Of a stretch of DNA of 64,000 nt, positions 1 to 62,627 are shown piece by piece (positions within the stretch are counted from its first letter, which is position 1; each line of letters opens with the position of its first letter). Under the pieces are notes generated by a model. It was given only the letters and a program-made list of their open reading frames with translations. It was not told the DNA's origin and did not search any database. Position numbers and translations under genes: made by a program. The stretch comes from Sphaerolaimus hirsutus (lineage: Eukaryota; Nematoda; Chromadorea; Monhysterida; Sphaerolaimidae): the NCBI GenBank assembly GCA_964036195.1, contig OZ038450.1:19435208-19499207 (forward strand), given 5' to 3'.

Positions 1-193
1 GCCACTGTCAGATGATGGCATGGTACTCAGAAGTGGTAATCGTGTGCGCGCTAATTCAAAATAAGACACCCTGGAAGTTATAATTTTAAGTAACAAGTAA
101 CATATGTGAGACCGTAGTTTAAGTTTCTCTCTTGTCTAAGTTTCGTTTTAGTTTTCAAACAACCTGTGGTTAGACCACGCAAGGGGGGAGGAG
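1..193 (+). other. 3' untranslated end of an LTR-type element
   Basis: This AT-rich stretch has no usable reading frame. It ends in a purine run (181-193) directly before a TGTGATGCC start, the usual layout of the internal 3' end, polypurine tract and 3' LTR of a Gypsy-like retroelement. Whether it belongs to a separate upstream element or to a tandem copy of the next one cannot be decided here. Confidence 0.4.
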
Positions 194-225
194 TGTGATG
201 CCAGAGGTCCGGTATAGTATGTAAT
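181..225 (+). mobile_element. Polypurine tract and LTR start, copy 1
   Basis: A purine run AAGGGGGGAGGAG (181-193) is followed by TGTGATGCC (from 194) and then GGTATAGTATGTAAT (211-225). The same three blocks in the same order occur at 12354-12421. Purine tract plus a TGTGATG start is typical of Ty3/Gypsy LTRs in animals. The LTR 3' end, primer-binding site and any pol gene were not found. Confidence 0.55.
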
Positions 226-1052
226 CTTTATATGTAGTAATTTTTTTCTTTTATGTAATTTTTCACGGAATTGTTATACGTAATCTTTTTATGCAACTTC
301 CTTATGTAATTCCTCTTAACGTTTTTCAAAAAAATTAGATATCTTCTCTTGGATTTGTATGATACCATTGGCATCATAACTCAACCATTGAGCATGTTGC
401 TAACATCCCGGTATGGACATGTCACTATAAATCTTCAATAGTCAGGTTGGAAGTAACGCGTCCTAGGTGTCGACCACAGGCACCGGGAAACGTCTTGCTA
501 CTGCACCTTTATACATCTTACTTCGTTCATGTGGGTTACCTGTTGCGTGATATAGGACACCTTGTAGACTATTACGGGTGAGTAGAGAAAAAGTTGCACC
601 CCCTCAAAAGATCGTGAGGCCCAGCTAAAAAGATTGTCGCTTTCACATTTAGGCTGTGTGAGTGGTATACTTAAGTTGTTGGGAACACGGTAGTGATGCA
701 AAAAGTGAGAGCATGTTTTTGCGAGGTCGCTTGGGTGCCGCGGTGTCCTCAATGCGCGAGAGACAAGTGCTTGCTCATGTCTCTCGCCCATCGAGGGCAG
801 ACGTTGGCATCGGCAGTTTGAGAAGTGGCCGTCTGAGTGAGACTCTCCATGCATGTTGATTGTCCGTACCCACGGCTATTATTTACCACTGTCCGTTCAT
901 TGTCTGAAAGCGCCCAGCTGGTAGTGCATTAACACCACCTACTTATTCTGTGATTATTGTGTCCTCTTAACCATTGTCCAACTCGCATGTGATTATAACC
1001 TTGTCTTTTAACAGTATGAAGACGTGCCATGTGGGGCGTGCGTTATAAGTTG
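226..1052. other. LTR-like leader, no gene recognised
   Basis: This non-coding stretch follows the LTR start. Short frames on both strands (for example around 498-859) overlap each other and have no recognisable domain. I see no convincing promoter or coding segment. Confidence 0.4.
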
Positions 1053-1102
1053 CTGATGACCCTAAAGTCCCAAGCCTACGTCCCTGGGATTGGGTCTATC
1101 AG
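1053..1102 (+). repeat. CCTACG-loop hairpin 1
   Basis: The core is TAAAGTCCCAAG, loop CCTACGTC, then CCTGGGATT. The outer stem is GACCC with GGGTC, extended by CTGAT with ATCAG across one bulged T. It is the only family member upstream of the giant frame. Confidence 0.75.
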
Positions 1103-2052
1103 CCACTCTTGCGTCTCTTGTGAATTATGATTCTAGCTTGCGCTCTGGGTAAAAAATATTCACCCACGTTACGGAGAAAAGATCATCTCCGTCTTGATCG
1201 AGCCCCACCACGTTCTTATTACCTTGTTCGCCTAGACCGCGCCCCATAGGTCTCCACCGCGGACTCGTTAGACAACCTGACACCCAAATTTTTTACTAAA
1301 TTTACAACCTTCCCAAGCGCGGTAGTGCGCCCTGGCCCGCTGCACTTAGTGAGATAAGCGCTGCCTTCCTGCTACTTTTGCACCTTTTTGTTGCATGCAA
1401 ATTTTGACAAAAAAAACCCTCTCAATACAGACTTGGGTACTAAACTTCCCCGCCCCGCACCCGGCCCGTAAATTGTATTTCTCGGAGGGCGACTTCGCCC
1501 GCTACCAGCTTCCCCCCGCTTTATCGTACTTCGTGGCCATTTGGGCGTGCTAGTCGCTGTCTTTTGCCTTTTTGGTGAGTGGACGCGATTACCCTTGTGA
1601 AGACCTGTCATGTTGGGAGGTGTACTGATGTTAGCCCCTTTGATCACAGATTGTGTCGGCAGTGGCTCGCTGAGCGCCTTCCATTTCGCTGCCCCCAGTT
1701 CTGTTGTTAAGGTGACTTATTTACTGTTGTCGTGCAATAGTTCAGTGCGATGTAGCCGGTAGTGGGAATAGCGTGAACCATCAGTTTTGAACACCGCAGT
1801 GTCTTCTCGATCGTGCAACGCGCGCACGTTTGCGATCGACGCGCGGCTCGTTTTTCGCCGTGCTCCGGTCAGGTTGGGACCACTGGTTGTGTGCCCCTGG
1901 AAGTCGTGGTGTGATTATAATTGTTATGTGTTTTTGTTGAAATTTAATTCTTCTGCACATTCCGTTTTTTCGCGTGAGTTTTAATGTTGTAAACTTTTGC
2001 TGAAAGTTTTGATCCCGGTAGAAAACTTGTTCTGTTTTGAGGGCGCGTTAGA
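1103..2052 (+). other. Leader upstream of the giant frame
   Basis: This is mixed-composition sequence without a recognised gene. Initiator-like TCAGT pentamers occur at 1741-1745 and 1780-1784, but no well-placed TATA box was found. The last bases put A at -3 and G at +4 around the ATG at 2053, a strong start context. Confidence 0.4.
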
Positions 2053-5000
2053 ATGGCACAAGCGCACGCTTCTACTTCTGTATATAACGACGACGGTGTG
2101 TTGTGGGACGTACTTCACAGAGACGGCCTAATTTGCCGCAGTCTGAGCACGTTGGATAGTCCCGACTCGGTAAGCGTGTCGTCGACGGTGTTCGAGTTGG
2201 GGGATCATATCGCCAACTTTTCACCGACGGCGTTCGAAGAGACCTTGAACAGTGGCAACCACCGGTTACTAGACCAGGCCCTGCTTAAAGACGCCAATGC
2301 GTTCCTCCGGACCTGCAATTTGCCCACTCTTAGCGACGTGCCAAACCGCCTCTGTGAAGTGCTGACCTTTAGTGCCGCTAGGGGTTTGCCTCCGAAATTG
2401 TTTGTGACACCGCGGCGCAGCAATGACTGGCGCTTAGCTGGCGTGGACGTGACGGGGCGCCAATTAGCCGAGCAGATGTTGACCGCCGTGCGGAACCATG
2501 CGTCAACCATCAGAAGCGCCAAAAGAGAGGTCGTGGCGGCAGTCGCGACCTTTATACCGGAAATGTTTCTGTACCCCGTAAATGAACCGGGTAGACAGCG
2601 GTTCGGATTCCGGAGCCTCTTGGATTACACACCGGAGGATCCTTTTGATGGTTGGATGCATACGCGTTCCGCGTTTGTGCGGAAATTCAAACAGATTTGG
2701 GCGTGTCATCCTGGCGATCCCATCGTGCAAGTTTTCATTCAGAATGCCAGACAACTGGAGAACCTGGGTGATTATTTGCCCACAGTGGGACAGGACCAGC
2801 CCAAAGCTATTTCAATTTCGCTCGGCTATAAGAGGCCCCGTGACAGTCGCGATAAAAATCCGTTTTTGGTGTCATTGTGCTTTCCGAACCGCGTCGTGGT
2901 TCACGTTCCGATCGCCTTGTTGCGCTCCACCACGAATAATTGGACCCCTTTGGGTGGGAAATTGTTGTTTGCGTGGGGTGACCCCCGGGCTGTCCGGTTG
3001 TACGCGTCCGAGGCGGAGCGGGAAACCTTGATTGGAATGTCCGGTACACCGCCTCCTCCTTGTAACACCACCGGAACCACCACAACCACCACACAGTGGT
3101 TGAGCTGTATTCCGGTGTTAGAAAAACTGTTGTTGACCACCGATGAACTTCGCGTGGAGCATAAAGACGATTGTACCGACATTTCAGTTGAAGTGCTCGT
3201 TGCCGCCGCGTGGCAACTATTTTCCGGACAGACACTCAAATGCCCCATTGGTTCGAAACACACCCCAATCGATACCGTGGAGGTCCAGGTGAACGACGCG
3301 TGGTTCGCAAACGCTTCGAGCCCCGCCCCTAGGGACCTCCCGGCTATCTTGGAGATCCAAGGGTATCGCGCGCAAACAATTTTGGACCTGTTTATTTTCG
3401 CATGCTGGAATTCCATTCGATCCCCGGTGGCCCGGCCCATTGAGGCGGTCGACCACTTTCGTTCGATTAGCGACGATGGGGGTACCGGGTTCATGCCGAC
3501 ACACCAACTGGATGTAGTCGGGCACAGACTCTCTCACAGACACCCGCCCAAACAGTTGCGCCGGTCGTCGAACGCCTTTTGCGAACGTAATCAGAGACCG
3601 GCGCCTTCGGACCTCCACCTAAACTGGCTGGAGGATCTGGTCATAACTTATCTGGGGAGAGTTCTGTACCGACTGTTGACAGAGAGGTCACTGACGACGT
3701 GGACTTGGGCCCAGCGTGGTGGGATGCCCACGACTGGCCCTCAGTGGTGCAGGTGGTTGCAGGAGCTAAGGGATGTCTGGAGGTTTTCTGACGCGGCAGT
3801 CCGCATTTTGCAGCGCTTACGCGAAATTGTGCCGTGTGTATTGACCTCCATGTTGGCAAGTTATTTGGCCGCGGGGAGCCGGGCGACCCCAAAAATGTTG
3901 ATTGTGCTCCTCCCGCAAATTTTTCAGTATGTCAACTGGTTCTTTTTAATGCTGATTAGAAGCGATGAGCCTTCTATGGAAACTATGATGAGCGTGCACA
4001 TCCGCGCCTTGTGGGGCGAATTGAAAATAGCCAGGTCGGTGACCCCGACTGATGGTGGCCCCCCTACTTTGGTGGTGGCGTTGGATTTGGAGCAGGATCG
4101 CGTTTTCGGGTCGACCGATGCCCCCATGAGCGCGCTTCGGTGGAAGTTAGCGGCGCCGCTATCGCCTGCGCTCAAAAGTTACACGCACTGCTTTCTGGAG
4201 TGGATGAATTACGCGCGCTTTCAACAACACCCAGACATCGCGTATAAGCCACAACCACACCCACTGCTGCCGGCCGACGCATATGCGCGCGCCACGTTTT
4301 TACTGTGGCAAGGCCCCGCCCCTTACCGCTATGATGAGCCGGAGTTGGAGTTCGATGAGGATTTGCCGAATCACCAGCTTCGTGGGTTACCGCGTATAGA
4401 TCACGCGGCGGTGTATGGCGACGTTCGCGGCCGCCTTGAAGCGGTAGGTGAGGGTAGGCTCTATGACACCACCCCGTTAGCGACCGTGTTGGACTTTTCA
4501 GCAAGGACCAAATCATGCGGGCCAGTGCCGATGGCCAGTATCCACAACGCGAGTACCCACCCCCTTTTGCGTTGGCAAGTGCCCACCGTTCCCTGGGCTA
4601 GTCCGCGGTCGGACTTTGGGCGAATGCACGTTGGAGTGCCGCCCCTGCGAACTTTGAATAGCAGGTCATGGTCGTTTTTGAACCACGGCCGCGGCGCTTG
4701 GGACACAGTTGCCGCCTCGGAAGGGGTGTTCTATTTGATGCCGCTGTGCGCCGGTACACTTTCGCCGCTACTCGCTTGCATGCACATTCTGCGACAAACG
4801 CACGCTCCGTCCGCAGACTTTCCGGCCCGCCTGTTAGCCACGGCGTGCGCAATGGCAAATGTGGAGTGGCTGGATGTCGTCACGGGTAGAGCCGAGGTGC
4901 CTCGACGGTGCTGGCTCAGCACTCTGGCGATACATTATGGCATTCCGACCGTGTTGCTATACTCAGAAAACAGCACGCCTCCGAACGCTTTTGGTGTTTA

Positions 5001-8000
5001 CGGCCAGGGCACCCAGACCGCTCTGCATTGCCAGTGCGCTGTAGTCGTGGTGGTGGGCAACGATTGGTTTGTGCATGACATTGAATTTGGGCAAGTGCGC
5101 TGCGTTTTCCCGCGCGGTCGCTGCACCGACTTGATCGAGACGCACATTCTCGACGAGGCGAATTTGCCCGAGGCGGACACCGCTCGTGTCAGCCGGAATT
5201 ATGGCGACATCGCAGCCTATAAGGGCGAGCCGCCTCAGGCGGACACTGTCGAGTGGAAGACGTGGGTGCTGGTGTGTCAACTGAACGGGATCTACTATGG
5301 GTGGGCAACGCCCCCAGTTGGCAAACTACTGCCCACGCTGGCCGCCGACATGTGCCCCCTTGAGAAAGCCCTCTTTGACCTGCAAGTCCAAGGGGCGCGG
5401 CTGGACGAAGTTGAGGCGCTAAACTACTTCCACGCCGTGATCATGCATGTCGGTCTGGTGGGAACACGCCTTGCGCGGCCGGAACAGCCGGCGGACATTG
5501 GTGCAACGCCGCTCGCCTCGCCATTCTGTTATTTTTACGATGAAACGAGCCGACTGGCGGTGCACATCATCTGCGGCTGGTGCCCGCGTGAGTGGACATC
5601 CCGCGCGATCGAACGGAACATGCGTATTTTTCAGCCCTACAGCGAACGCCCGCTACCCCCCGGTATTCCGGCCAAGTCGACCCTCGATAGGATCATAGCC
5701 GGCCAACAACTGGCGTACGAGCTGCGCAAGCAGTACTTCGCGGTGTTGCTAGGGGCACCCGCTTGTGAGCCCCAGGGGCGTGTCCAATTTGGTGCCTCCT
5801 TGCCCTACCAGCTAGCTCGCACACAACCAGCGCTTTCGTTCAATCAGATTCTGCAGGTGTTGCACTCTGTGAGGAGCCAAATTGCTCCGCCGGAGCCGCA
5901 GGAGCCCTTACGGTTTGATGTCATCCACAATGCGGAGCATTCCCTCATGCGACGGGCTGACAATCAGGATCCCTCTGCAGACCCAATTGAGGAGGTTCGC
6001 ACGAGCGGGACTCCTGACGGCAACCCCGTTCATACTTGGTTGACTAAGGTTTACCCGCATCACGGCTGCTTTGACGACGGACGCCCCGTGGAGGACGTCG
6101 CGGGATTCCAGGGGGCGCAATATAGGTCGGCGCCTAACCGCCTGGTCAATTTCTTTTTCGACCCGCACAAGCGCCCCTTCACCCAGCTAGCTTCTGGCGT
6201 GCGCACGTGGGATGTCGGCCTGGTAGAGCCTCGTGCCTTGCCAGCTCCCGATGACCCCCGCCGGCGCATTTTGAACCCTGACGAGTCGGCAGATGAAGGG
6301 ATGTCCTCAGCCGCCCCTAGTGTAGTGGGACAGCTGGAAATTGTAGTCCCAATGGAGGTCGCGGCCGGCGAGGAGCAGTCCGATGCGGGTGTCTCGGCTG
6401 ACCACGTTCCGGATAGCTGGTCCCAAGAGGTGGAAGCAGCGAACCGGGCCGAGGGCACCTACAGACTCCGCATCGTACCTCTTCAACCGGTGCGAAACCA
6501 GCTCGCTAAAGAAGTGTTTGAAAGCGCAACCGATGACAGAATTCGCGCTGTGGCGAGGGCGTTGCTTGGTCACGACGACTCAGGGAACAAAGAGAGACTG
6601 GACGCGCTGGGTTTTTCTAAAACAGCGGTGTGGTCGTCGTTTGGCTTGGTTGATCCCTTAGAACCGGCAGCGTATTTGGTGCCGGAACTGGGAGACGACC
6701 CCTTTGACGGTTTTGGACCGATCCCACTCCGCGACGCCTACGTGCCACCGGCTGCACTTATTCAGCCAGACGGTGATGTCCAAGTGGCCCCGGTTAACCC
6801 GGCCGTGAATAGTTTTCACACTCACGAGCAGGGCCGGCGGTTCTTCCGCGAGCAAAATGTCCCGTACATTACGCTCGAAACAGGGTTGATTCTGGGTATT
6901 ATGAACAGCACCCCGTATTTCTACTACGAGGTCCCTATTGAGGGCCGTATGATCGACGTTTGGCGCCGGGAGGCCTGGCTACCCATGACGCAGTACTGGG
7001 ATGAGCTGCTTCCAGACCACATCACGCAGTTGTTTACCATTTTTCGCCAATATTACGCGGCGACAATGCAAGGGGAAGACGTTCGACCGTTCTTCAACTT
7101 GGGGACTAAACAACTGCAGTTAGTGCGGAATGCAGGGCTCCCACCTGCGGCGTCAGGGGAGGCCGAGTCGAATCACTGGTTGACAAACGCGTTTGGGCCG
7201 GCTGAACGCGCGCGCTTAGTGGCCGTCGCGAGGACCAGAGGGCATTATAACCCTGATTGGTCCCCGCGACACCCGTTGAGGAGGGCCATGAGCGAGTGGC
7301 TCCAGCCGGAGCAAACGTACGCACCCGGTTGGGAGAGGTTACACGTCGAAAGCGTGCCCCTCCCACTCCGCCCCCTTTATGCTGAGATGCTTATGAGCCT
7401 CAGCTTGGACGAGTCTCGGTACACCTCTAATGCGGGACGCGCCTTGCCGTTCTTCCTTGACAGTTTTAGCGACAAACCGCCCTTGACCTTGGAAGTGCCT
7501 GTGCCGCCCAATGTTTTCGCCGATTCGGAAGAAGTACTGCCTACCTTGCCAATAGGGCACCGCTATTTCGGCGGCGGTACGAACGTGTCACTGACTAGGT
7601 GCATCTTGAATTGGTTGTCGTTTTGGCGCAAACAGCGGGAACTCCTACACGTGTTGGTGCTGTCAAACGAACAGTGGGCGGCATATTGCGTGCGTTTCCC
7701 CGAAGCGCCACGAACTTGGGTCAGGTGGCAAGACCGACTTAGGCAGGCAAACCCGGACCAGCTGCGGGCTATGCTTGATGAGACTCAGGACGAGTTTACG
7801 GCCTTCTTGTTGCGCGCGAAGATCGTGTGTGCGACTGTTAAGAGACCCTCCGACCTTGTCTTGCAACCCGTGCTGAACACGTCTTTAGGTCGTTGGCTCG
7901 ACTTTCGGTTGTATATCCTCCGGCTGCTGGCACTGGATGGGAGTCCCGGTTTGGGAAGACCGGACGTGCACGCAGGCGTGGGTACGATATCGATTGGCGA

Positions 8001-8865
8001 CTACCACACGTATCTATTCTTCTCCGGAGATAGTCCGCTGGGGAACTTTTTTAGGGCCCCTATTCCACTAATGGGCGATCTGTACGTGCCGTCATCTGAG
8101 CACTTGTATCACGTTCTGCAGTTGATCTTTAGCGGGGATCACGATTTGATTGTGCCCCTGCTCAGACACTCGGAGCCTAGTCGCTGCAAGTCTCAGATGA
8201 CGTCCTGGCGTAGGGAGGGTAGAATCGCCGGCTGGAAACAGAAACAGCAGGAGTGGCACAACTGCGGTCTTGCCGTTGCAGCCATGCACGCTGTTTTGCG
8301 ACTCAAGCTGGCGACCTGCCCGGCCTACCGGAACGCCCTCGCTAACAACCCCGACTCGATTTTTATCGAGGCGAGCCCACACGACCCGTTCTGGGGTATT
8401 AAACAAGGTATGAACGACCGGACTCTTTGGACAAGCGTAGAGACGTGGGGTGACAACTGGCTGGGCCGGCTGCATATGACAATGGCGGAGCAACTAGCAC
8501 GCGAACCCGCACCGCGTCCGTGGCCTGTTCTGAGCCTGAATGAATTGGCGATGTCCACCCTTGCGAAATGCAGAGGCGCCGTCCAACGGCCACGACCGCT
8601 TCAACCGCTGTCCACTGCACTCGTGGATAGAATTGCACGGTGCAGGGCGGTGCGGCGGTATGCCCCCAGTGAAATTCCGCCAACTATCACGACCGTGCAG
8701 TTTGTCCAAGGCCAAGATCCGGCCATTGCGATCGGACAGCAGGTGGAATTGGGCCAGCGCCCCATCCCGCAACTTGCAGTGATTGAACGCGAGCACAACC
8801 TGCCGCGAGGGGCAAATAAGGCCGCTCGTAGGGTACACCGCCTGCGTCAGGTCCGCACTAAGTAG
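2053..8865 (+). CDS. Giant 2270-aa protein with C-terminal NADAR domain
   Basis: This is a single uninterrupted frame in balanced-to-GC-rich codons, unlike its AT-rich flanks. The C-terminus (about residues 1985-2150) shows the NADAR/YbiA pattern: GNFF (1997-2000), SSEH (2014-2017) followed by a hydrophobic helix ending in Q2023, K2046, W2061, a segment EASPHDPFWG (2106-2115) and GDNWLG (2133-2138). Known NADAR proteins are N-glycosidases acting on riboflavin intermediates (YbiA), and some reverse ADP-ribosylation of guanine. Residues about 890-1030 weakly resemble an OTU protease fold (CWLSTLAIHYGIPTVLLY) without a clear catalytic Cys. Residues about 331-348 are a Pro/Thr-rich linker. The rest is unrecognised; no reverse transcriptase, integrase or helicase motif was seen. 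The ATG at 2053 has a strong Kozak context and the stop is TAG. It may be cargo of an LTR-type or virus-like element; that is inference. Confidence 0.88.
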   Translation: MAQAHASTSVYNDDGVLWDVLHRDGLICRSLSTLDSPDSVSVSSTVFELGDHIANFSPTAFEETLNSGNHRLLDQALLKDANAFLRTCNLPTLSDVPNRLCEVLTFSAARGLPPKLFVTPRRSNDWRLAGVDVTGRQLAEQMLTAVRNHASTIRSAKREVVAAVATFIPEMFLYPVNEPGRQRFGFRSLLDYTPEDPFDGWMHTRSAFVRKFKQIWACHPGDPIVQVFIQNARQLENLGDYLPTVGQDQPKAISISLGYKRPRDSRDKNPFLVSLCFPNRVVVHVPIALLRSTTNNWTPLGGKLLFAWGDPRAVRLYASEAERETLIGMSGTPPPPCNTTGTTTTTTQWLSCIPVLEKLLLTTDELRVEHKDDCTDISVEVLVAAAWQLFSGQTLKCPIGSKHTPIDTVEVQVNDAWFANASSPAPRDLPAILEIQGYRAQTILDLFIFACWNSIRSPVARPIEAVDHFRSISDDGGTGFMPTHQLDVVGHRLSHRHPPKQLRRSSNAFCERNQRPAPSDLHLNWLEDLVITYLGRVLYRLLTERSLTTWTWAQRGGMPTTGPQWCRWLQELRDVWRFSDAAVRILQRLREIVPCVLTSMLASYLAAGSRATPKMLIVLLPQIFQYVNWFFLMLIRSDEPSMETMMSVHIRALWGELKIARSVTPTDGGPPTLVVALDLEQDRVFGSTDAPMSALRWKLAAPLSPALKSYTHCFLEWMNYARFQQHPDIAYKPQPHPLLPADAYARATFLLWQGPAPYRYDEPELEFDEDLPNHQLRGLPRIDHAAVYGDVRGRLEAVGEGRLYDTTPLATVLDFSARTKSCGPVPMASIHNASTHPLLRWQVPTVPWASPRSDFGRMHVGVPPLRTLNSRSWSFLNHGRGAWDTVAASEGVFYLMPLCAGTLSPLLACMHILRQTHAPSADFPARLLATACAMANVEWLDVVTGRAEVPRRCWLSTLAIHYGIPTVLLYSENSTPPNAFGVYGQGTQTALHCQCAVVVVVGNDWFVHDIEFGQVRCVFPRGRCTDLIETHILDEANLPEADTARVSRNYGDIAAYKGEPPQADTVEWKTWVLVCQLNGIYYGWATPPVGKLLPTLAADMCPLEKALFDLQVQGARLDEVEALNYFHAVIMHVGLVGTRLARPEQPADIGATPLASPFCYFYDETSRLAVHIICGWCPREWTSRAIERNMRIFQPYSERPLPPGIPAKSTLDRIIAGQQLAYELRKQYFAVLLGAPACEPQGRVQFGASLPYQLARTQPALSFNQILQVLHSVRSQIAPPEPQEPLRFDVIHNAEHSLMRRADNQDPSADPIEEVRTSGTPDGNPVHTWLTKVYPHHGCFDDGRPVEDVAGFQGAQYRSAPNRLVNFFFDPHKRPFTQLASGVRTWDVGLVEPRALPAPDDPRRRILNPDESADEGMSSAAPSVVGQLEIVVPMEVAAGEEQSDAGVSADHVPDSWSQEVEAANRAEGTYRLRIVPLQPVRNQLAKEVFESATDDRIRAVARALLGHDDSGNKERLDALGFSKTAVWSSFGLVDPLEPAAYLVPELGDDPFDGFGPIPLRDAYVPPAALIQPDGDVQVAPVNPAVNSFHTHEQGRRFFREQNVPYITLETGLILGIMNSTPYFYYEVPIEGRMIDVWRREAWLPMTQYWDELLPDHITQLFTIFRQYYAATMQGEDVRPFFNLGTKQLQLVRNAGLPPAASGEAESNHWLTNAFGPAERARLVAVARTRGHYNPDWSPRHPLRRAMSEWLQPEQTYAPGWERLHVESVPLPLRPLYAEMLMSLSLDESRYTSNAGRALPFFLDSFSDKPPLTLEVPVPPNVFADSEEVLPTLPIGHRYFGGGTNVSLTRCILNWLSFWRKQRELLHVLVLSNEQWAAYCVRFPEAPRTWVRWQDRLRQANPDQLRAMLDETQDEFTAFLLRAKIVCATVKRPSDLVLQPVLNTSLGRWLDFRLYILRLLALDGSPGLGRPDVHAGVGTISIGDYHTYLFFSGDSPLGNFFRAPIPLMGDLYVPSSEHLYHVLQLIFSGDHDLIVPLLRHSEPSRCKSQMTSWRREGRIAGWKQKQQEWHNCGLAVAAMHAVLRLKLATCPAYRNALANNPDSIFIEASPHDPFWGIKQGMNDRTLWTSVETWGDNWLGRLHMTMAEQLAREPAPRPWPVLSLNELAMSTLAKCRGAVQRPRPLQPLSTALVDRIARCRAVRRYAPSEIPPTITTVQFVQGQDPAIAIGQQVELGQRPIPQLAVIEREHNLPRGANKAARRVHRLRQVRTK

Positions 8866-8896
8866 CTTGTACCAGGCAATAGAGGAGTGCGGTGTG
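8866..8896 (+). other. Start of the 3' region of the giant frame
   Basis: This short spacer lies between the stop codon and the first of a dense series of hairpins. Confidence 0.4.
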
Positions 8897-8959
8897 TGGG
8901 TGTCGGGACTAAAATGCCAAGCCTACGCCCTTGGGATTGTCCCGGCGCAAATACACCCA
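8897..8959 (+). repeat. CCTACG-loop hairpin 2
   Basis: The outer stem is TGGGTGT with ACACCCA and the inner stem CGGGAC with GTCCCG. The core is TAAAATGCCAAG, loop CCTACGCC, then CTTGGGATT. It lies 31 bases after the giant frame's stop. Confidence 0.85.
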
Positions 8960-9029
8960 ACTCCTTGACGTCTGATCGATTTTATTTTGACAATTGTGTG
9001 ATGGCTATACTTTTATATGAGCTAATTAG

Positions 9030-9076
9030 CCGGAGGATTAAAGTCCCAAGCCTACGCCCCTGGGATTATCCAACGG
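9030..9076 (+). repeat. CCTACG-loop hairpin 3
   Basis: The stem is CCG-GGAT with ATCC-CGG. The core is TAAAGTCCCAAG, loop CCTACGCC, then CCTGGGATT. Confidence 0.75.
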
Positions 9077-9133
9077 TGATGTCAGAATTATCGAAATTTA
9101 TTTATACGGTTATCCTTGCCATGACGGCGCAAT

Positions 9134-9190
9134 GCGGTGTTGGGGTCTAAAGTGCCAGACCTACGTCTCTGGGATTGCCCCCAGCACTGC
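9134..9190 (+). repeat. CCTACG-loop hairpin 4 (compensated inner stem)
   Basis: The outer stem is GCGGTG with CACTGC (one wobble pair), then GGGG with CCCC. The inner stem is CCAGA with TCTGG instead of CCAAG with CTTGG, a paired change, while the loop CCTACGTC is kept. Confidence 0.85.
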
Positions 9191-9268
9191 GTGGCGACGT
9201 ACTGACGAGGTATTGTTATAATGCCTCACACAGTTGTGCAACGATTTCAAAATGCTACTTATGTTTCG

Positions 9269-9274
9269 AAATAA
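9269..9274 (+). promoter_or_regulatory. Candidate polyadenylation signal AATAAA
   Basis: A canonical AATAAA lies about 400 bases after the giant frame's stop, followed by a G-rich and T-rich stretch. It is plausible as a cleavage signal, but the hexamer is common by chance. Confidence 0.3.
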
Positions 9275-9319
9275 AAGGGGTCTTTTTCTGCAGTACACGT
9301 GCGCTATGATGACTGACTG

Positions 9320-9364
9320 ATGAATTAAAGTCCCAAGCCTACGCCCCTGGGATTATTCTGACGC
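9320..9364 (+). repeat. CCTACG-loop hairpin 5
   Basis: The core TAAAGTCCCAAG, loop CCTACGCC and CCTGGGATT are intact. The outer stem is short (GAAT with ATTC, then TGA with an imperfect partner), the weakest of the series. Confidence 0.6.
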
Positions 9365-9418
9365 CAGCCGCATAGTCGCCAGAATTTCATGCCCTGAGTG
9401 ACAGTTTTATCGTGTAAT

Positions 9419-9482
9419 GTGCCGTCGGTGGCTAAAGTGCCAAGCCTATGTCCCTGGGACTGCCACTGGTGACACACGGCAT
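9419..9482 (+). repeat. CCTACG-loop hairpin 6 (loop variant)
   Basis: The outer stem is TGCCGT with ACGGCA, and the inner stem GTGGC with GCCAC. The loop reads CCTATGTC, the only departure from the ACG centre among the copies. Confidence 0.75.
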
Positions 9483-9609
9483 GGTATTGCTGGTCTTCCC
9501 AAATCGACAATCACTTGTCTCGCCCTTTAACCTCATCGAATTTCGCAATTCATCCAAATACCTGGAAACCAACAACTGTAATTATTTATTTTTCGGAAAC
9601 AGTGTCACT

Positions 9610-9682
9610 TCGCAATGCGGTCTGGTGCCTAAAATGCCAAGCCTACGTCCTTGGGATTGGCACCGGCTGTGTAGCGTTGTGG
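9610..9682 (+). repeat. CCTACG-loop hairpin 7
   Basis: The inner stem is GGTGCC with GGCACC, and the outer arms CGCAA and TTGTG pair imperfectly. The core is TAAAATGCCAAG, loop CCTACGTC, CTTGGGATT. It is duplicated as hairpin 8. Confidence 0.7.
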
Positions 9683-9866
9683 TACGTAAATGAGTTCAAA
9701 TAACCTCAGGAAACAAACTAATTGGTCTCAAGATTTAATAGTCACGCCGCCTGCTTTATTTGCGATTTTTTTATTCTTCATTTTTTTTGCGCAGTTTTCG
9801 TCATTCCCCTCGCATTTTTGGGACTTTTTCCCTTATTCTTGTCACTTTCGAGCTGCCACAGTGTCA

Positions 9867-9942
9867 CTTCGCAACGCGGTCTGATGCCTAAAATGCCAAG
9901 CCTACGTCCTTGGGATTGTCACCAGCCGTGTAGCGTTGTGGT
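9867..9942 (+). repeat. CCTACG-loop hairpin 8
   Basis: The core TAAAATGCCAAG, loop CCTACGTC and CTTGGGATT are intact. The outer pairing includes GCAACGC with GCGTTGT. It is the tandem-duplication partner of hairpin 7. Confidence 0.7.
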
Positions 9943-10152
9943 GAGTAAAATGGGTACAAATATTTTTAGGGAATAAAATTTAATGGTCTCAGGATTAATA
10001 GTTATGCCGTCCGCCGCATTTACGATTTTATATCCTTCATTTTTGCGCATGTTTCTGCCATTTTTCTCGCACTTTGGGGACTTTTTCCCTATCCTTGTCA
10101 TTTTGAGCTGCCATTGTTATTTTGTGCGATGAGTAGTAATTTATAAGGGCGC

Positions 10153-10221
10153 GGTGTGTGTGCGTTGGAACCTAAAGCGCCAAGCCTACGTCCTTGGGGT
10201 TGGTATCGGCACACACACACC
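10153..10221 (+). repeat. CCTACG-loop hairpin 9
   Basis: The outer stem is GGTGTGTGTGC with GCACACACACC (11 pairs). The core is TAAAGCGCCAAG, loop CCTACGTC, CTTGGGGTT, closed by ACC with GGT. Confidence 0.85.
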
Positions 10222-10290
10222 TAACTCTCTCTTTAAACGAAAGGAAATTTTCCATTTTTGATTGCAACCTTGTATACATTTGTGGTATCA

Positions 10291-10371
10291 TGTCTCTGAG
10301 GGCCAGGTTGAGGGGGTTAAAGTGCCAAGCCTACGTCCCTGGGACTACCCCATGGCCTGGACCCAGAGACA
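10291..10371 (+). repeat. CCTACG-loop hairpin 10
   Basis: The outer stem is TGTCTCTG with CAGAGACA, then GGCCAGG with a shifted CCTGG partner, then GGGG with CCCC closing the core TAAAGTGCCAAG, loop CCTACGTC. Confidence 0.85.
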
Positions 10372-10768
10372 AGGTAAAATTTGTGTTTCTTCACGCCGCG
10401 TAATTTTTGAGTTGTTTTAAATAGTTATACCTCGACCATACTGAGCGTCGCTGTAAATAATTATTCTTAGCTTTCTACGCCGCTTTTGTATTTTACCTGT
10501 ATTTAACAAAACCGCGTGGTCACATCGAAGAGGGCCCCTGGCTTTACATGTGTATTTAGAATATCAGGACGGCCCCCGGTCATTGTGTAATTATTTGGGA
10601 CTGGACTCATGGAATTTTGTGCACACAGTTTTCCTTTAAAACTCCAGTGACCTTGAACACTTTCTTTTAAACAGCCACCTGGATAAAGACTTTTCGCTTC
10701 CCACATTTAAAGTAATCACCAATAATTTTTGCTGGTTATGGCTGGGAACAAATTTTTGCAGCCACACA
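10372..10768. other. AT-rich spacer, nothing recognised
   Basis: A small reverse frame (10503-10706) has no recognisable domain. I see no repeat or regulatory signal here. Confidence 0.4.
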
Positions 10769-11107
10769 ATGGCCATATTAGTGGAAAACAGTTTAGTTCA
10801 GTTTCACTTCAATCTTCATGTTTTTCCAAAATTTTCTCATGTGTTCCTTGAAACTTTAACGGAATATTTTTGCACAGGAAACACTTTTCTGCATCTATCC
10901 TTCTTGACTATGGATCAAAATCAAAATGCTGGCCACACTCATTGCTTGACAATGTCTGTCATGACTGGTTCACCAAATATAAATTTCCATGAATTTATGT
11001 ACCAAGGAGACAATGAAATTGTCATGCGTGTGACCGCTGGAGAAATGCGGCTCACACAGCCACTTCAACGTGAGCTTGATTGGCAAGATCCCCGTCGCGA
11101 AAAGTGA
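10769..11107 (+). CDS. Hypothetical 112-aa protein
   Basis: ATG to TGA frame with an alternative internal start at 10911 that would give 65 residues. The N-terminal part is aromatic and hydrophobic; the C-terminus is polar and ends DPRREK. No family is recognised. It lies between CCTACG hairpins and 54 bases before another small frame on the same strand. Its AT-rich codons differ from the giant frame, so it may be a separate acquisition or a chance frame. Confidence 0.3.
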   Translation: MAILVENSLVQFHFNLHVFPKFSHVFLETLTEYFCTGNTFLHLSFLTMDQNQNAGHTHCLTMSVMTGSPNINFHEFMYQGDNEIVMRVTAGEMRLTQPLQRELDWQDPRREK

Positions 11108-11130
11108 GAATTTTCATGGGTTCAGCGTGA

Positions 11131-11151
11131 AAAAAAAAAAAAAAAAAAAAA
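11131..11151 (+). repeat. Poly(A) run of 21
   Basis: Twenty-one consecutive A lie between two small frames. It could mark the 3' end of a retroposed transcript; no target-site duplication was identified. Confidence 0.6.
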
Positions 11152-11160
11152 CTGTGTATA

Positions 11161-11493
11161 ATGACCAAAATTTCTTTCAGCTTGAGTGAATCTGTCCTTC
11201 TGTGGGGAAACACGGCTTTTGGAAATGACCAGCCACTGTTGGCAATAACTGGCCATGTGGCACCGATTCAACAACGTCAAATCCATGGCACTGGCACCCC
11301 AATGCAAGTACCGGCCCACTGTCTACCGAATAGGGAGTCGTCGATTTCACCAACTGATTTCACTTATGACCCGCATCTTTCTGTCGGCCCCCCCATGCAT
11401 GTGACCACGCGAGTTATTAATTCACATAGTTTTCCTATCAATATCACCCTGGAACAGATTGGCAATTTCGTAGATATCAAATTGCAATTTTAA
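11161..11493 (+). CDS. Hypothetical 110-aa protein
   Basis: ATG to TAA frame just after the poly(A) run. The product is rich in hydroxyl residues and Pro, with an alternating hydrophobic C-terminus (INITLEQIGNFVDIKLQF) that suggests beta strands. No family is recognised. It could be the second half of a split gene with the preceding frame; they are in different phases and separated by stops. Confidence 0.35.
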   Translation: MTKISFSLSESVLLWGNTAFGNDQPLLAITGHVAPIQQRQIHGTGTPMQVPAHCLPNRESSISPTDFTYDPHLSVGPPMHVTTRVINSHSFPINITLEQIGNFVDIKLQF

Positions 11494-11656
11494 TGGCTTC
11501 GATCCTGCGTTGAGTATTATTTCCTTTCCGCTTTGAGGTAAACGTAGTAATTCCAACAACAACATTTGCCAAATTTATTTTTGTACCCGCTATTATCTCT
11601 TTTTACTATGGTGCAGGTGAACCACGACGCGTACTGATTCAGTTTCTAGTGTGAGT
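11494..11656. other. Spacer, nothing recognised
   Basis: AT-rich sequence between the small frame and hairpin 11. Confidence 0.4.
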
Positions 11657-11713
11657 TGGGTGCAGCGGTCTAAAGTGCCAAGCCTACGTCCCTGGGACTG
11701 ACCAAAGCACCCA
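11657..11713 (+). repeat. CCTACG-loop hairpin 11
   Basis: The outer stem is TGGGTGC with GCACCCA, and the inner stem GGTC with GACC. The core is TAAAGTGCCAAG, loop CCTACGTC, CCTGGGACT. Confidence 0.85.
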
Positions 11714-12350
11714 TTGTGTATGTTTTGATATCGCTTTTCTGAAATTTCCTCTTAGTAAGCGCAGTCACTTAGTTGCACGCGGTGATTTTTGGTAATTGTG
11801 TGGAGGTAAACCGCTTGAGCCATGTGTTTTGTGAAGTTAGCCGCCGATTTGATTAGTAGCTGCGTTTGTGCCACCAAGATTAAATGCCGTTGTTTTTGTG
11901 CTTGCGATTAGGCTGAGAGTTGTGTAGTTGGAATGTTTTCTACCGGGATCCCTTTTGTGAATTGTTGTATTTTGTATTGTTGTGAATAATTCTAGCCTTT
12001 GTAGTGGTTTCAATTTAGTCACGTTTAGTTTATATTTTGTTTTAGTGGCATTCCACTTGCCTTCCGGTCTCACTTACGGTTCTCACGATTCTGCCTTTAA
12101 AATTTTTCTTGCCATAATCTTAGATTCGGTTCTGACGTTTTAGTAGGGTGCTTCCAGTGCACATGTTGGCGTATTTTCCAGGGTTCCACTTGCGATCTGG
12201 TAGCAATTTTAACGTACCTCAAATATCTATCTGCAATACACCGCAACGCTTTAAATACATGAAAAATATCAACATCAGTCTCGACAGTCCCTTGTAAATA
12301 GTATATAACACCCTCTTCGCTGCTGTTACGCTGACTAACCCGCGCTTTTA
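11714..12350. other. 3' non-coding region before the second purine tract
   Basis: T-rich on the plus strand, with no convincing gene. TATATAA (12302-12308) is a possible TATA box but is not followed by a clear initiator. Confidence 0.4.
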
Positions 12351-12421
12351 GAAAAGGGGGGAGGAAGTGTGATGCCTGTTCGCGCTGGGTCAGCGCTCAA
12401 AAGGTCGGTATAGTATGTAAT
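12351..12421 (+). mobile_element. Polypurine tract and LTR start, copy 2
   Basis: GAAAAGGGGGGAGGAAG (12351-12367) is followed by TGTGATGCC (from 12368) and GGTCGGTATAGTATGTAAT (12403-12421), matching the arrangement at 181-225. Between them a small GCGCTG/CAGCGC hairpin is inserted relative to copy 1. The two signatures bracket a 12.17-kb unit holding the giant frame, but sequence diverges soon after the shared start, so they may not be one LTR pair. Confidence 0.55.
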
Positions 12422-12429
12422 GCGAGAAC

Positions 12430-12486
12430 TGACGGTGGGCCACCGAAGTGCCAGACCTACGTCTCTGGGACGGTGACCCAGCGTCA
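12430..12486 (+). repeat. CCTACG-loop hairpin 12 (near-perfect)
   Basis: TGACG, TGGG and CACCG pair with CGGTG, CCCA and CGTCA with single-base interruptions. The inner stem is CCAGA with TCTGG and the loop CCTACGTC. The left bulge is shortened to AAGTG. Confidence 0.9.
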
Positions 12487-12558
12487 ATTAACGCTTACTA
12501 AACCCTAGTTATGGCGCTTTAGTCGCCGGGGACGCCATATTGACCCTTTTGGGCCAAG

Positions 12559-12566
12559 TGACGTCA
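12559..12566 (+). promoter_or_regulatory. CRE palindrome TGACGTCA, copy 1
   Basis: A perfect CREB/ATF consensus. It lies in a block (about 12557-12612) repeated at 12785-12841 that shares TGACGTCATT, AACCTAACTT and TTACGGCGC in order. Confidence 0.5.
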
Positions 12567-12626
12567 TTACGACGTCGCCATATGTGAACCTAACTTATAG
12601 GAAACTTACGGCGCAGCGGACGCCAA

Positions 12627-12703
12627 CTATGGTAATTGGCGCCAGATCACCAAAGTGCCAGACCTACGCCTCTGGGACGGCGATTAAGCGCGAATTACCA
12701 TAG
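12627..12703 (+). repeat. CCTACG-loop hairpin 13 (longest outer stem)
   Basis: CTATGGTAATT pairs with AATTACCATAG, then GCGC with GCGC, then ATC-CC with GG-GAT. The inner stem is CCAGA with CTGG and the loop CCTACGCC. The stem spans about 77 bases in total. Confidence 0.9.
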
Positions 12704-12786
12704 AACGGTAGACCGATGGCGCTATGTTGCCGGCCTTAATTAGTAAAACGGCCTAATTAGCTGCCCTTAGTTGTGAAAAGCCCGAG

Positions 12787-12794
12787 TGACGTCA
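12787..12794 (+). promoter_or_regulatory. CRE palindrome TGACGTCA, copy 2
   Basis: This second perfect CRE lies 228 bases after the first, within the repeated block. Two CREs in an LTR-like region suggest an inducible promoter; that is inference. Confidence 0.5.
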
Positions 12795-12841
12795 TTCGAC
12801 ACAACCGGGAGTGGAACCTAACTTTTGCGAAAGTTACGGCG

Positions 12842-13262
12842 CTTTCACTAAAAAGGAAAGCAGCGCCGAGCAAAAAGTCGATTCCCTTGGGCATGGCGGC
12901 CAAACGAGCGCCGGCGAACAACTTCGACGGCCGCGACAGCGCCGCGCCGCCGCCATTCGACACTCGCCGACCGCCGGAACCCGGGAGAGGGGGATTTTGG
13001 GTGTTTTGGGAGACTTTGGGAAGGGTCGGATCGGCCATTCTTGGCCGAGTGCCAACTTTCGGGAAATGACACCAAGTGTATTTTTGAGGGGGTTTAAGCG
13101 CTGTCGCCGTGTTTTGGCGACAGTTTATCACTCAAACTTGTAAATCTACCCCCTACCCAGTCCCCGCGAGCGTCGACAGCGTTGGCCGCCGGAAACGTCC
13201 GCGGAGCGACAGACTTCGGCCGCTCAGAGTTCTTGGTGGGAGTGGCCACCGGAAGGGAGGGC
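12842..13262. other. GC-rich LTR-like segment
   Basis: Overlapping frames on both strands (75-124 aa) are GC-composition effects with no domain. No coding call is made. Confidence 0.4.
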
Positions 13263-13315
13263 CCCGATAGCTCCAGAAGCCTACGCCCTTCGGAGTAGAG
13301 ACGGGTCAACCCTTC
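13263..13315 (+). repeat. CCTACG-loop hairpin 14 (variant)
   Basis: The inner stem is GAAG with CTTC around the loop CCTACGCC, closed by CTCC with GGAG. The outer CCCG pairs with CGGG. This is a third inner-stem sequence with pairing preserved. Confidence 0.75.
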
Positions 13316-14118
13316 TGGAGGGATATGTGCCTTAGGTTAAAAATTAGTAAAGGAAATTGGAATAATGCCAAAAAGGCAGTTTTTTTGTGTGTAGTTTGGC
13401 ACATATCCCACAGCCACTGCTGCCACAGGGAGGAGTTTTGTGATGTTTTAGGCTGTAGGAGTAGGCTTAGGTTGTAGGTGCGCGGTAGGTGCCGCGGTAT
13501 GTGATTTATTGTGTATGTATTTGTGTTTATGTGCACTTATTTACCCACCTAACCCCCTTAGTTTGTGATAATTGCATGTGTTTGTGATTGTATTTCTACG
13601 TTTGCACTTATTTCTGTGTTTCGCACGTATTTCTGTGTTTGCACTTTTGCATTTTTGTGTTTACTTCGCGTCAGTCGATTGGTACGCTGGTTGGACGAGC
13701 TCACGTTTGAGCGAACACGGTTGTTTTTGTGTTTTGGTCCTTTTGCACTTGTTTGCAGTGTTCGAGTAGCTGTGGATTTACTTGGCACGTTTCCAATGGT
13801 ATCACGTTTAGTTTTGGAGAGTTTCGCTCAGTTGAGTCATTTTTAGCTGTTAGTTGTGCGTTTACATTTGGTAGGTTACTGTGGGTGGTTATTTCTTAGT
13901 TTGGCACAGTTCCAAGTTTGGTTTCATTAGCTGGCTGAGTGCCAGAAGAAAGGTGTTCCTGAATGTCAAGTCACCATCCCCTTGTTCCATTAAAAGTAAC
14001 CCTTGTGGTACATGGCTTGGTTCAGCTGAAGTCACTTATTTTCGGTACACTTTCGAATGCACTTTCGTGATTGGTTGGCTCCGCCCAGCTGCAAACCAGT
14101 TTTGGGCACTTCAAACCC
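13316..14118. other. LTR-like segment with TG-rich simple repeats
   Basis: 13500-13760 is rich in TGTGTTT-like repeats. Frames on either strand here are short and low-complexity. Confidence 0.4.
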
Positions 14119-14154
14119 ATAAAAGAGAGCCCCAATCCAGTGATTATCATCAGT
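14119..14154 (+). promoter_or_regulatory. Candidate core promoter (TATA-like and Inr)
   Basis: ATAAAAG (14119-14125) lies about 31-33 bases upstream of TCAGT (14150-14154), the spacing expected for a TATA box and an arthropod-type initiator. It would start a transcript covering the frame at 14824. Confidence 0.4.
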
Positions 14155-14823
14155 CTATTCAATCCAATTTCTAATTACTAAGTCAGTGATTTACCAGCTG
14201 AAATGAGCCTACCCTTGGTTATTCATTCTCTGCTAACTCTGGCATAGGCCTTCTCTTCCCTCTGCACGGTGACATTTAGGTTCACAGGGGCAGGAGTGGC
14301 CACACGGAGCTGCCGGTATAGCTAAGATAGGGTGTTGTATGGGGAGAACCCACCATCTGTGATGCTTACTGTACGTCTGGACCTCTGTGGACTTGTTTTA
14401 GGCGTAGTATAAGCTGAAGTAGGCTGTACACCTATTGACTCGCTCTAGGCTTTCGTAAGGGCCCAAACAGTTGTGCTACGTCGTCGTAGATTACTTTTGA
14501 TAGTGGTGCTGTGCCAAGCTAGGATTTAAGTACCTGGTCTTGTGTGGTCTCTTACCAGTGCATCGTACTGCTATCCTCACCTGTCTGGTTTAGCTTATAT
14601 GACCCTGAGTGTTATTTAGTCATTTTTATGTTAATGTTTTGATTTGGGAAGCGGAAAGGTAAATTGGAAATATTCAAATACTTTGGAAACTTTGATTGCA
14701 ACGTTATTCGAGAAACCCAATTAGTGTAATTCAAGCTTACTCTGGTGCAACTATTCTCTACTTAATCTATTGGCTCATTCCAGCTAGTGGATCTAATTAC
14801 TTCTAATTCTAATTTGTGAAAAC
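14155..14823 (+). other. Presumed leader of the 14824 frame
   Basis: Non-coding, mixed composition. No splice sites or primer-binding site could be assigned with confidence. Confidence 0.35.
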
Positions 14824-15930
14824 ATGATGGAAGTTGCTTTTATCTGCTTGCATTCGAGTGATGTTCAATTGTCGGTTTTTGAAGCATGGGCGAATCTCGT
14901 TTCGATTTCTGAAGGCGCGCCAAGTTCTGAAGGTTTCTGGGAAATTGATGATTTGGAAGCGGGCCCAGTTTTTGATGGTTTTGAACCCGTGTCGGAAATG
15001 TTTCAAATACAACGAAGGGCCACGTATGCGGAAAAGGTTCAGGGCGCCGGTGATTTCGTTGTTGATTCTGTTTTGCCCAATGGCGAAGTGATTTGTGATG
15101 CTTCTCAGCAGTGGTTGTTGGATCACTTGATCATGGAGCCAGCTTTTATTGAACCCGGAATTTGTGGTGTTTTTGAGCAAACTGCTGAAAGGCTGAAGAA
15201 ATCTGTGCAGCCTAGAAACCTTTGGTATTTGGTGGGTAAGAAGGGGAAATTGCAGCCGCACGTTATTCGTCGCAAGCTTTTGCAATTTGCGCGACCGGAC
15301 TTTGTTAGCTGTGGCAACCAAGTAGACCGAAAAGCTCAGAAGCCTACGTCCTTCGGAGTAGCTAGGTCGAAAGGCACCAAGCTGGTGAAGTTTGGCAGAC
15401 AGGGTTCCCGCGCACGCGGCAAGCGTAGGGCTGGTAGGGCAATTGTTGATCGTCCTGTGGACATTATGTCGCTGGTTGAATTGTCGGGATTGTGCGATTA
15501 TTTAGTTGGCGTGTTGCCACCGTTTGTTGTTCCACACGTGCAAAAGGTAACTAAGTCCCCTGTTAGGTGCTGTACCTTTGGCGTCATTAGGCAGGATGGA
15601 CTGCATGAGCGCATCGTTGAAAGTTCTGACGGAATTGGACACTGTCCAAGGTGTTGCTATTTGGCCTATAAGGATAAAGTTGTAGTACCCGGGGGCCCAC
15701 CTTATTATACATGGCGCTGGCGCCCTTTAATGGCGCCAAAGGGCGCCAGCGCCATGGCGTCATTGGCGCTTGGCGCCCTTTTCTCTGGCCCCATATGGCG
15801 CCTGGCGCCATTATTTCAAATGGCGCCATGGCGCGCTTGGCGCTTGGCGCCATTTTCGCTGGCGCCAATTTGGCGTCCGGCGCCATTCGTTTGGATGGGG
15901 CCAGAAATGGCGCCAAAATTCTGCACATAA
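14824..15930 (+). CDS. Hypothetical protein with basic stretch and Cys/His cluster, truncated by repeat
   Basis: The frame of 368 codons has a tandem ATG start. Residues 1-295 look protein-like: an acidic N-terminal half, a basic stretch GRQGSRARGKRRAGRA (about 193-208) and a C-terminal cluster C-C, H, H-C, C-C ending HCPRCCY that could bind zinc. A basic region plus Cys/His cluster resembles a gag or nucleocapsid layout, but no family is recognised. From about 15712 the frame runs into GGCGCC repeat DNA, so the last 70 or so residues are probably not original. CCTACG hairpin 15 lies inside the coding region. The frame follows the second LTR-like control region. Confidence 0.45.
   Translation: MMEVAFICLHSSDVQLSVFEAWANLVSISEGAPSSEGFWEIDDLEAGPVFDGFEPVSEMFQIQRRATYAEKVQGAGDFVVDSVLPNGEVICDASQQWLLDHLIMEPAFIEPGICGVFEQTAERLKKSVQPRNLWYLVGKKGKLQPHVIRRKLLQFARPDFVSCGNQVDRKAQKPTSFGVARSKGTKLVKFGRQGSRARGKRRAGRAIVDRPVDIMSLVELSGLCDYLVGVLPPFVVPHVQKVTKSPVRCCTFGVIRQDGLHERIVESSDGIGHCPRCCYLAYKDKVVVPGGPPYYTWRWRPLMAPKGASAMASLALGALFSGPIWRLAPLFQMAPWRAWRLAPFSLAPIWRPAPFVWMGPEMAPKFCT
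15326..15368 (+). repeat. CCTACG-loop hairpin 15, inside a coding frame
   Basis: The inner stem is GAAG with CTTC around the loop CCTACGTC, closed by CTC with GAG. Outer GACC pairs with GGTC. It is the only family member inside an open frame. Confidence 0.7.
15712..15912. repeat. GGCGCC-rich palindromic segment 1
   Basis: About 200 bases dominated by GGCGCC and TTGGCGC motifs on both strands. Similar segments occur at 21956-22086, 24842-25011, 25198-25345 and 53522-53580. Confidence 0.75.
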
Positions 15931-60351: not shown

Positions 60352-60596
60352 GACATCGACACTAAATGTCAACTAGTGCCGATCCCAATTCAAAGTATGG
60401 TTGTGACGATATGACTTTTCTATATCGATAGTCTATATTCGATATATTTTTCTGAAACTCAATATTCGATATCGATACGATATGAACCCTCGATATTCGA
60501 TATCGATATTTGATATGAAAAAATGATCGATATTTCGATATTTTCGATATTTCTATATTTTGATGCAGAGGGGCATATCGGTTTTCCATTTGGTCA
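60352..60596. repeat. Duplicated MITE/GATAT segment, copy 2
   Basis: It repeats 57611-57855 almost exactly, from ACATCGACACTAAATGTCAA to TTTGGTCA. Confidence 0.85.
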
Positions 60597-61710: not shown

Positions 61711-61754
61711 GACATCGACACTAAATGTCAACTAGTGCCGATCCCAATTCAAAG

Positions 61755-62498: not shown

Positions 62499-62627
62499 AT
62501 TCAAAGCTTGCTGATGAGCCGATAAATGACGTTCAAACGCAAGCTTTAAATTGGGAACGGAACCAGTTGACATTTGGTGTCGATGTCAACTAGCGTTTGT
62601 GCGGTCAATGTTGCTTCTCTCTGCCAG

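Follow-up and report, generated by a model that had tools for sequence, protein, structure and literature searches.

In the passages of PMC6281560, packaging signals of the MS2 TR type are dispersed: many hairpins lie on one RNA and share a loop motif, with a 5' bulge in MS2, while their stems differ. For long terminal repeat (LTR) retroelements, part of PMC10309623 describes that Cer1 encodes CERV, which is needed for export of the Cer1 genomic RNA. Giant Gypsy-like elements of about 25-30 kb with extra open reading frames (ORFs), Burro and Ogre, are found in passages of PMC6431247, the gag-pol frame of Burro being very long. The NADAR domain occurs in Gypsy pol and Tx1 ORF1 according to passages of PMC12477816. 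Here we analysed a stretch of 64,000 nucleotides (the window) from the nematode Sphaerolaimus hirsutus, contig OZ038450.1 (C1:19435208-19499207), in which a giant Ty3/Gypsy-type LTR retrotransposon carries a family of hairpins with a common loop, a common bulge and differing stems.

The family is closest in logic to the dispersed packaging signals, as far as the passages cited describe those: many hairpins sharing loop and bulge stand on the sense strand of one element, with different stems. It is unlike them in that its motif is much more uniform, that it is carried by an LTR retrotransposon and that binding of a coat protein is putative. In size the closest are Burro and Ogre, likened here by their description in those passages (Gypsy-like, giant, with an extra ORF); as described there, they differ from the present element, which has a NADAR-bearing ORF2 after pol and the hairpin family. 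For ORF2 the closest are the NADAR-bearing Gypsy and Tx1 elements, also retrotransposons with NADAR; unlike the arrangement in the passages on them, NADAR is here close to the C-terminus of a separate ORF of 2270 aa that follows pol. Retroviral constitutive transport elements (CTEs) are likewise cis-acting structured RNA in LTR elements. A CTE is a single long stem with two internal loops, unlike the 17 to 19 separate hairpins here, and we know of no sequence likeness between them. No repeated hairpin of such kind in an LTR retrotransposon was found in the open-licence literature, as represented by titles, abstract openings and passages.

An earlier note on the window had listed fifteen hairpins with a common loop around a giant frame, and all fifteen were confirmed at their places. 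They align without gaps across 53 columns. Of the loop pattern CCTAYGYC the window has 20 occurrences, where 4.24 are expected and none of 100 shuffles reached 20; 15 of the 20 are these hairpins. Thirteen are of one type and built alike: a variable lower stem is followed by a bulge on the 5' side (in most of them TAAA), then by two or three pairs, a position that is G-G or C-G and five more pairs, and the loop is CCTACGYC. The other two, 13280 and 15343, are a variant with the same loop on a different upper stem (AGAAG/CTTC). The left bulge, given as TAAARTG, is present, but only about three A-rich bases are unpaired, on the 5' side about 8 pairs beneath the loop, and the remainder pairs.

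The hairpins are not restricted to the first 15.4 kb around the giant frame, as had been thought. The set continues past the left edge of the window, where eight more belong to the same element, four in the 5' LTR and four in gag-pol. Each unit has 17 main-type and two variant-type hairpins, all on the sense strand. Among the main type, two are in the LTR, four in gag-pol, one between gag-pol and ORF2, nine in an array of 1.5 kb which starts directly past the ORF2 stop, and one before the LTR. The hairpin at -9492 (loop CCGACGCC) was left out of the model and was yet recovered at E 3.6e-14. Folded alone, 14 of the 19 hairpins had z <= -2; the weaker five were 9051, 9338, 11683, 13280 and 15343, and the best free fold of 11683 differs from the model structure.

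Across 281 matches (279 places, because two gag-pol positions were counted twice, outside the array test given below), loop position 7 was T in 226 and C in 55, and each of the other seven positions was at least 97.5% one base; these conservation figures are upper estimates, as the scan itself required likeness to the core. The loop-adjacent pair was GC in 238 and AT in 43 with no exception, and the first pair beneath the bulge was CG in 193, TA in 81 and other in 7. Kissing between loops through ACGU is disfavoured by the 55 loops with C at position 7.

Covariation had been suggested as a check of the structure, and it was above shuffles. For the 15 window hairpins the named structure scored 0.464 against 0.192 shuffled (0 of 500 shuffles; maximum of the slid versions 0.188). 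The outer arms had been called unrelated between most copies and yet paired within each copy; the pairing holds, although a few arms are related by duplication, since 9599-9858 is repeated at 9858-10113 (81%), 8889-8963 resembles 10151-10227 (79%) and 12441-12490 resembles 12648-12697 (84%). In 16 main-type hairpins (13 in the window, 3 upstream) 76.6% of the cells were paired against 60.2% shuffled, and the covariation score was 0.481 against 0.211 shuffled (0 of 500 shuffles; slid versions at most 0.171). With 103 model matches (65 distinct) from 23 sources it was 0.486 against 0.214 shuffled, in an alignment fitted to the model where two of five measures were not clearly above shuffles (48 and 266 of 500).

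Variation between copies followed the same structure. Diversity in eight arrays (87-100% identity, two being identical tandem copies) was 0.110 in the spacers, 0.063 in the outer arms, 0.015 in the inner stem, 0.011 in the bulge and 0.047 in the loop, whose variation was mainly C/T at position 7. Paired double changes were found between copies at a single position. In the gag-pol hairpins the divergence was too small for this test to tell. It is well supported that sequence is conserved in the loop, upper stem and bulge, and mainly pairing in the lower stem. A structured element under selection, and not ordinary repeat copying, had been proposed, and the covariation and the low core diversity support it.

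A functionless core might also duplicate as a by-product of copying, with arms that pair by descent. Some neighbours are indeed plain tandem duplicates, and all copies of a position descend from one element. We consider this very improbable: the arms are unlike between positions yet pair, the double changes are paired within one position, the core varies less than the spacers, none of the places listed (roughly the first hundred of each genome scan, judged by eye from spacing) was outside sets of the element, and the four lone places examined are its fragments or LTRs. A miniature inverted-repeat transposable element, the outcome named in the earlier note as refuting its proposal, was also rejected, because apart from the few duplicates arms are common only to the same element position, as retrotransposon copies must be, and not across positions, and because of the nature of the four lone places; no search was made for target duplications flanking single hairpins.

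The LTR retrotransposon itself had been missed before, and the giant frame is its second ORF. As the 18 kb of sequence preceding the window showed, the hairpin region is the 3' part of a 29,255-bp element that has its 5' half outside the window. Both LTRs are 3,294 bp and identical at 3,293 positions, they are flanked by a 4-bp target duplication, and the boundaries are consistent with other copies in the genome. The gag-pol is a single open frame with domains in Ty3/Gypsy order: CCHC at 1525 and 1562 and protease DTGAE at 1915 by motif search, then RVT_1 (2353-2514), RNase H (2577-2706), H2C2 (2937-2990) and rve (3010-3104) by Pfam. Of the CCHC zinc knuckles of Gag, one was found by Pfam and two by motif. 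Judged from the LTRs with target duplication and from the reverse transcriptase (RT) ahead of integrase, the assignment to Ty3/Gypsy appears well supported. The gag-pol frame begins inside the LTR (window 14824-15930), so the 3' LTR also carries the first part of this frame, followed by host DNA. A TATA-like stretch near 14140, seen by eye, would place hairpins 12456, 12663 and 13280 in U3, at the RNA 3' end, and the element RNA would be roughly 26 kb.

The genome searched was 348 Mb in 762 contigs. The core pattern was found at 502 forward and 530 reverse places (1,032), with none for the reversed control. The core with a free loop was found at 588 + 619 places (1,207; control 0), and among the matches listed the loop was CCTACGYC or a variant by one or two bases. 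The places listed (about the first 100 of 1,032 and of 1,207) form sets with fixed spacing, and none was outside element sets as judged by spacing and by eye. A marker unique to hairpin 10185 occurs at 73 places, and the hairpins cluster with homologues of the giant frame, which the earlier note had proposed as a test: the marker was no more than 8 kb downstream of a same-strand ORF2 match in 71 of the 73, and 58 of 61 ORF2 matches have it. It was also within 25 kb downstream in 56 of 61 RT matches at >=94% identity (the second piece of one split copy excluded). All 27 arrays examined outside the window come after an ORF2 end. Of the lone places, C1:4106232 and C1:12834505 are fragments of the element, and two others, where LTR hairpins alone occur, are LTRs at 83-91% identity.

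Three other Gypsy elements of the same genome, out of 52 rows with 36-39% RT identity (from 114 scored of 1,643 candidates), had no hairpin at E up to 10 in 8 kb each, which are perhaps partial elements. Viral contigs had no core pattern. Four bacterial contigs had it as inner matches of 19 to 22 bases only, with no outer arms, and these were taken as chance. As far as sampled, the hairpin is confined to this element alone.

The earlier note had named both a structured RNA and a DNA cruciform. A transition in a Watson-Crick pair gives G-U on one strand and A-C on the other, and the two are expected to be equal without selection. Matches were on one strand within each of the 46 loci scanned, which is the element sense strand by ORF2 end or LTR where checked. 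With a strand-neutral alignment of the arms, eight array copies and other loci gave 72 G-U and 41 A-C (p 0.0046). At the nine array positions, states found in at least three copies were 24 G-U to 4 A-C (p 0.0002), while those private to one copy were 11:12; in longer arms the shared states were 48:18 and the private ones 20:24. The private versus shared difference had Fisher p 0.006, and 0.005 in longer arms. It was also seen with the second loop pair included (shared 24:4, private 11:13) and with outer arms only (22:4 and 9:11). The eighth pair from the loop was GT in 156, GC in 80, AT in 45 and AC in none of the 281 matches.

Several counts weigh against an RNA-level reading and, with it, against the packaging function discussed below. 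The LTR hairpins alone had 5 G-U and 10 A-C. The uncut outer-arm count over 28 array copies and all 17 positions was 74 to 63 (p 0.39), and states in exactly two copies of the longer arms were 2 to 12. The second pair from the loop was A-C in 131 of 281 with G-U absent; this would agree with the other strand, with an A+-C pair or with no pairing at all. Furthermore, the events behind shared changes are not independent of each other, and the counts were looked at in eight bins. We regard the evidence as good but not final that the contrast between shared and private changes reflects selection during RNA passage and then free decay after insertion. Between the two possibilities, sense-strand RNA is favoured by the one-strand placement and the shared G-U changes, though the uncut count is not significant, and action of the hairpin as RNA is supported but not proven.

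An element at the DNA level, such as a cruciform, a recombination site or a replication site, would agree with the inverted arms, with arrays of 8, 9 or 11 matches in different copies, which mean that units are gained and lost, and with similar arrays in copies having diverged ORF2 ends, which means exchange near the array. The placement on one strand, the absence of AC at the eighth pair, the preference of shared changes for G-U and the four sites inside the open gag-pol frame are all opposed to it, and we think it improbable.

What might such an RNA element do? Each long imperfect stem would present the 8-base loop CCUACGYC together with a 5'-side bulge, and protein sites usually have this form, with loop and bulge fixed and the stem kept mainly for its pairing. 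The hairpins would then be a dispersed, repeated cis-acting element of the retrotransposon RNA. The most likely reader would be the element's own Gag with its CCHC zinc knuckles, and many sites along the RNA would help to select it and condense it into particles. We infer a protein as reader, Gag as that protein and packaging as the purpose. Our best reading, to which we give about an even chance, is therefore of repeated protein-binding sites on the element RNA, most likely Gag-binding dispersed signals for packaging or condensation. Gag binding fits the spread of the hairpins along the RNA, into gag-pol and the LTR. Opposed to it, the densest cluster is in the 3' untranslated part, which spliced RNAs would carry as well, whereas packaging signals of retroviruses usually lie near the 5' end.

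Because the dense array sits behind ORF2, a role of the 3' untranslated region fits too. The hairpins may serve the export, stability or localisation of the RNA. A host mRNA factor or the ORF2 protein would read them and so allow this huge unspliced RNA to leave the nucleus or to be translated, in the manner of a multi-copy CTE or a Rev-type system. This reading is suggested by the nine of 17 main-type hairpins in the 3' array, by ORF2 frames of at least 2,270 codons in 39 of 61 copies and by the marker hairpin downstream in 58 of 61. The CERV protein of Cer1, as described in part of PMC10309623, is the closest precedent, an element-encoded export protein in an LTR element. On the other side, an export element would not need the four hairpins within gag-pol and the others in the LTR, Pfam gave no RNA-binding domain in ORF2, and no Rfam match was found in the window. 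We consider export a real possibility, with perhaps one chance in three, and place Gag binding ahead of it by a small margin.

Small ribozymes, too, can take the form of variable stems with a small conserved loop and bulge, so a self-cleaving ribozyme or an RNA-processing site was considered, as the earlier note had done. Rfam 15 gave no match in the window at gathering score. A lax scan of 8860-15500 gave one long non-coding RNA match under its threshold and no ribozyme family. The four copies inside gag-pol would moreover cut the main message. We found no evidence for a ribozyme and take it as the least probable of the alternatives, barely to be expected. Taken as a whole, the interpretation in the earlier note is partly supported.

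The peptides KCQAYVPG and KSQAYAPG are encoded by two of the gag-pol hairpins, at residues 1699 and 1768. They lie between the zinc knuckles and the protease motif, where cleavage by the protease would be expected, and the two could have a second role as protease sites. A peptide-level cause of the gag-pol copies was considered, as the four main-type copies share their reading phase (KCQTYVSG, KCQTDASG, KCQAYVPG, KSQAYAPG), but the variant is out of phase and most hairpins are non-coding, and it was rejected.

The coordinates of the hairpins and of the element features are listed in Table 1.

Table 1. Hairpins and element features, in window positions (negative numbers are upstream of window base 1).
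Feature	Position	Strand	Remark
Gag-pol hairpins, four, main type	-9675, -9492, -4893, -4686	+	
Gag-pol frame, last codons and stop	1..64	+	remainder upstream of window
h1075, main type	1051..1103	+	between gag-pol and ORF2
ORF2, giant frame, 2270 aa	2053..8865	+	second ORF, after pol; NADAR at residues 2010-2148
h8922	8898..8950	+	opens 3' array; z -6.31
h9051	9027..9079	+	array; z -1.23
h9160	9136..9188	+	array; another copy has paired double changes, AGA/TCT to AAG/CTT
h9338	9314..9366	+	array; z -1.78
h9445	9421..9473	+	array; loop CCTATGTC, CCTACGTC in two other copies first compared
h9642	9618..9670	+	array; tandem duplicate of h9901
h9901	9877..9929	+	array; tandem duplicate of h9642
h10185	10161..10213	+	array; genome-wide marker
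h10330	10306..10358	+	array
h11683	11659..11711	+	before 3' LTR; weak free fold (z -0.76), strong model score
Purine tract, like a polypurine tract	12350..12367	+	48 bp upstream of 3' LTR; assigned by eye
3' LTR, 3,294 bp	12416..15709	+	one mismatch to 5' LTR; target duplication CATG
h12456, main type	12432..12484	+	3' LTR
h12663, main type	12639..12691	+	3' LTR
h13280, variant type	13256..13308	+	3' LTR
h15343, variant type	15319..15371	+	LTR part also holding gag-pol frame start

NADAR is the sole accepted Pfam domain match in ORF2. The best 19-residue mean hydropathy of ORF2 was 1.74, where the usual cut for a membrane segment is 1.6; a membrane segment is neither shown nor excluded by this value. 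No homologue was found at E <= 0.001 among 7,470 candidates in the protein collection, and none in viral contigs or among PDB sequences. Structure prediction of two ORF2 pieces gave a mean predicted local distance difference test (pLDDT) of 30.4 and 34.6 and was set aside. The NADAR part was found 61 times in the genome, as 33 rows at >=91% identity, 27 at 75-77% and one 70% fragment, and ORF2 forms two groups with about 75-77% amino-acid identity between them. One of the 39 copies with long frames has an inner TAG. The ORF2 ends diverge strongly among copies (69-99% DNA identity against window 8400-10365), and the best-aligned array pieces are at 81-96%. Together, divergent ends and similar arrays suggest exchange by template switching near the ORF2 stop.

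Other parts of the element were also inspected. The purine tract and TGTGATGCC...GGTATAGTATGTAAT motif of 12350-12420, before the 3' LTR, recur at window 181-231, right past the gag-pol stop, as though an older element had once ended here and ORF2 and the array had been joined on behind it. At C1:510981-562720 two tandem units repeat at 25,765 bp and apparently have the middle LTR in common. Between the array and h11683, window 10919-11491 may hold a small spliced gene with a frame starting MDQNQNAGHTHC; its first piece had no Pfam match. In the host DNA adjoining the element, 16120-17055 has a 271-base inverted repeat of 92% identity near C-rich simple repeats. Long overlapping frames on both strands at 57970-63993 gave sub-threshold matches to a Pcf11 repeat family and ATP-grasp_4 matches, one over the cut-off, and look like an in-frame DNA repeat.

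To our knowledge, little has been established, except in yeast and retroviruses, on the way in which LTR retroelements, and giant ones in particular, mark their genomic RNA among the transcripts of the host. Here the RNA mark is visible in the sequence, repeated, structurally constrained and tied to one element with a known Gag. We tentatively suggest, short of an even chance, that one hairpin code at about nineteen places, kept by structural selection, is the first explicit system for dispersed packaging or condensation (or for multi-site export) in an LTR retroelement. Shared changes have passed the RNA stage and private ones arose mostly after insertion, so their contrast may serve more generally to detect selection at the RNA level in families of repeats. 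If the suggestion is true, the hairpin code is perhaps what lets so giant an RNA be handled at all.

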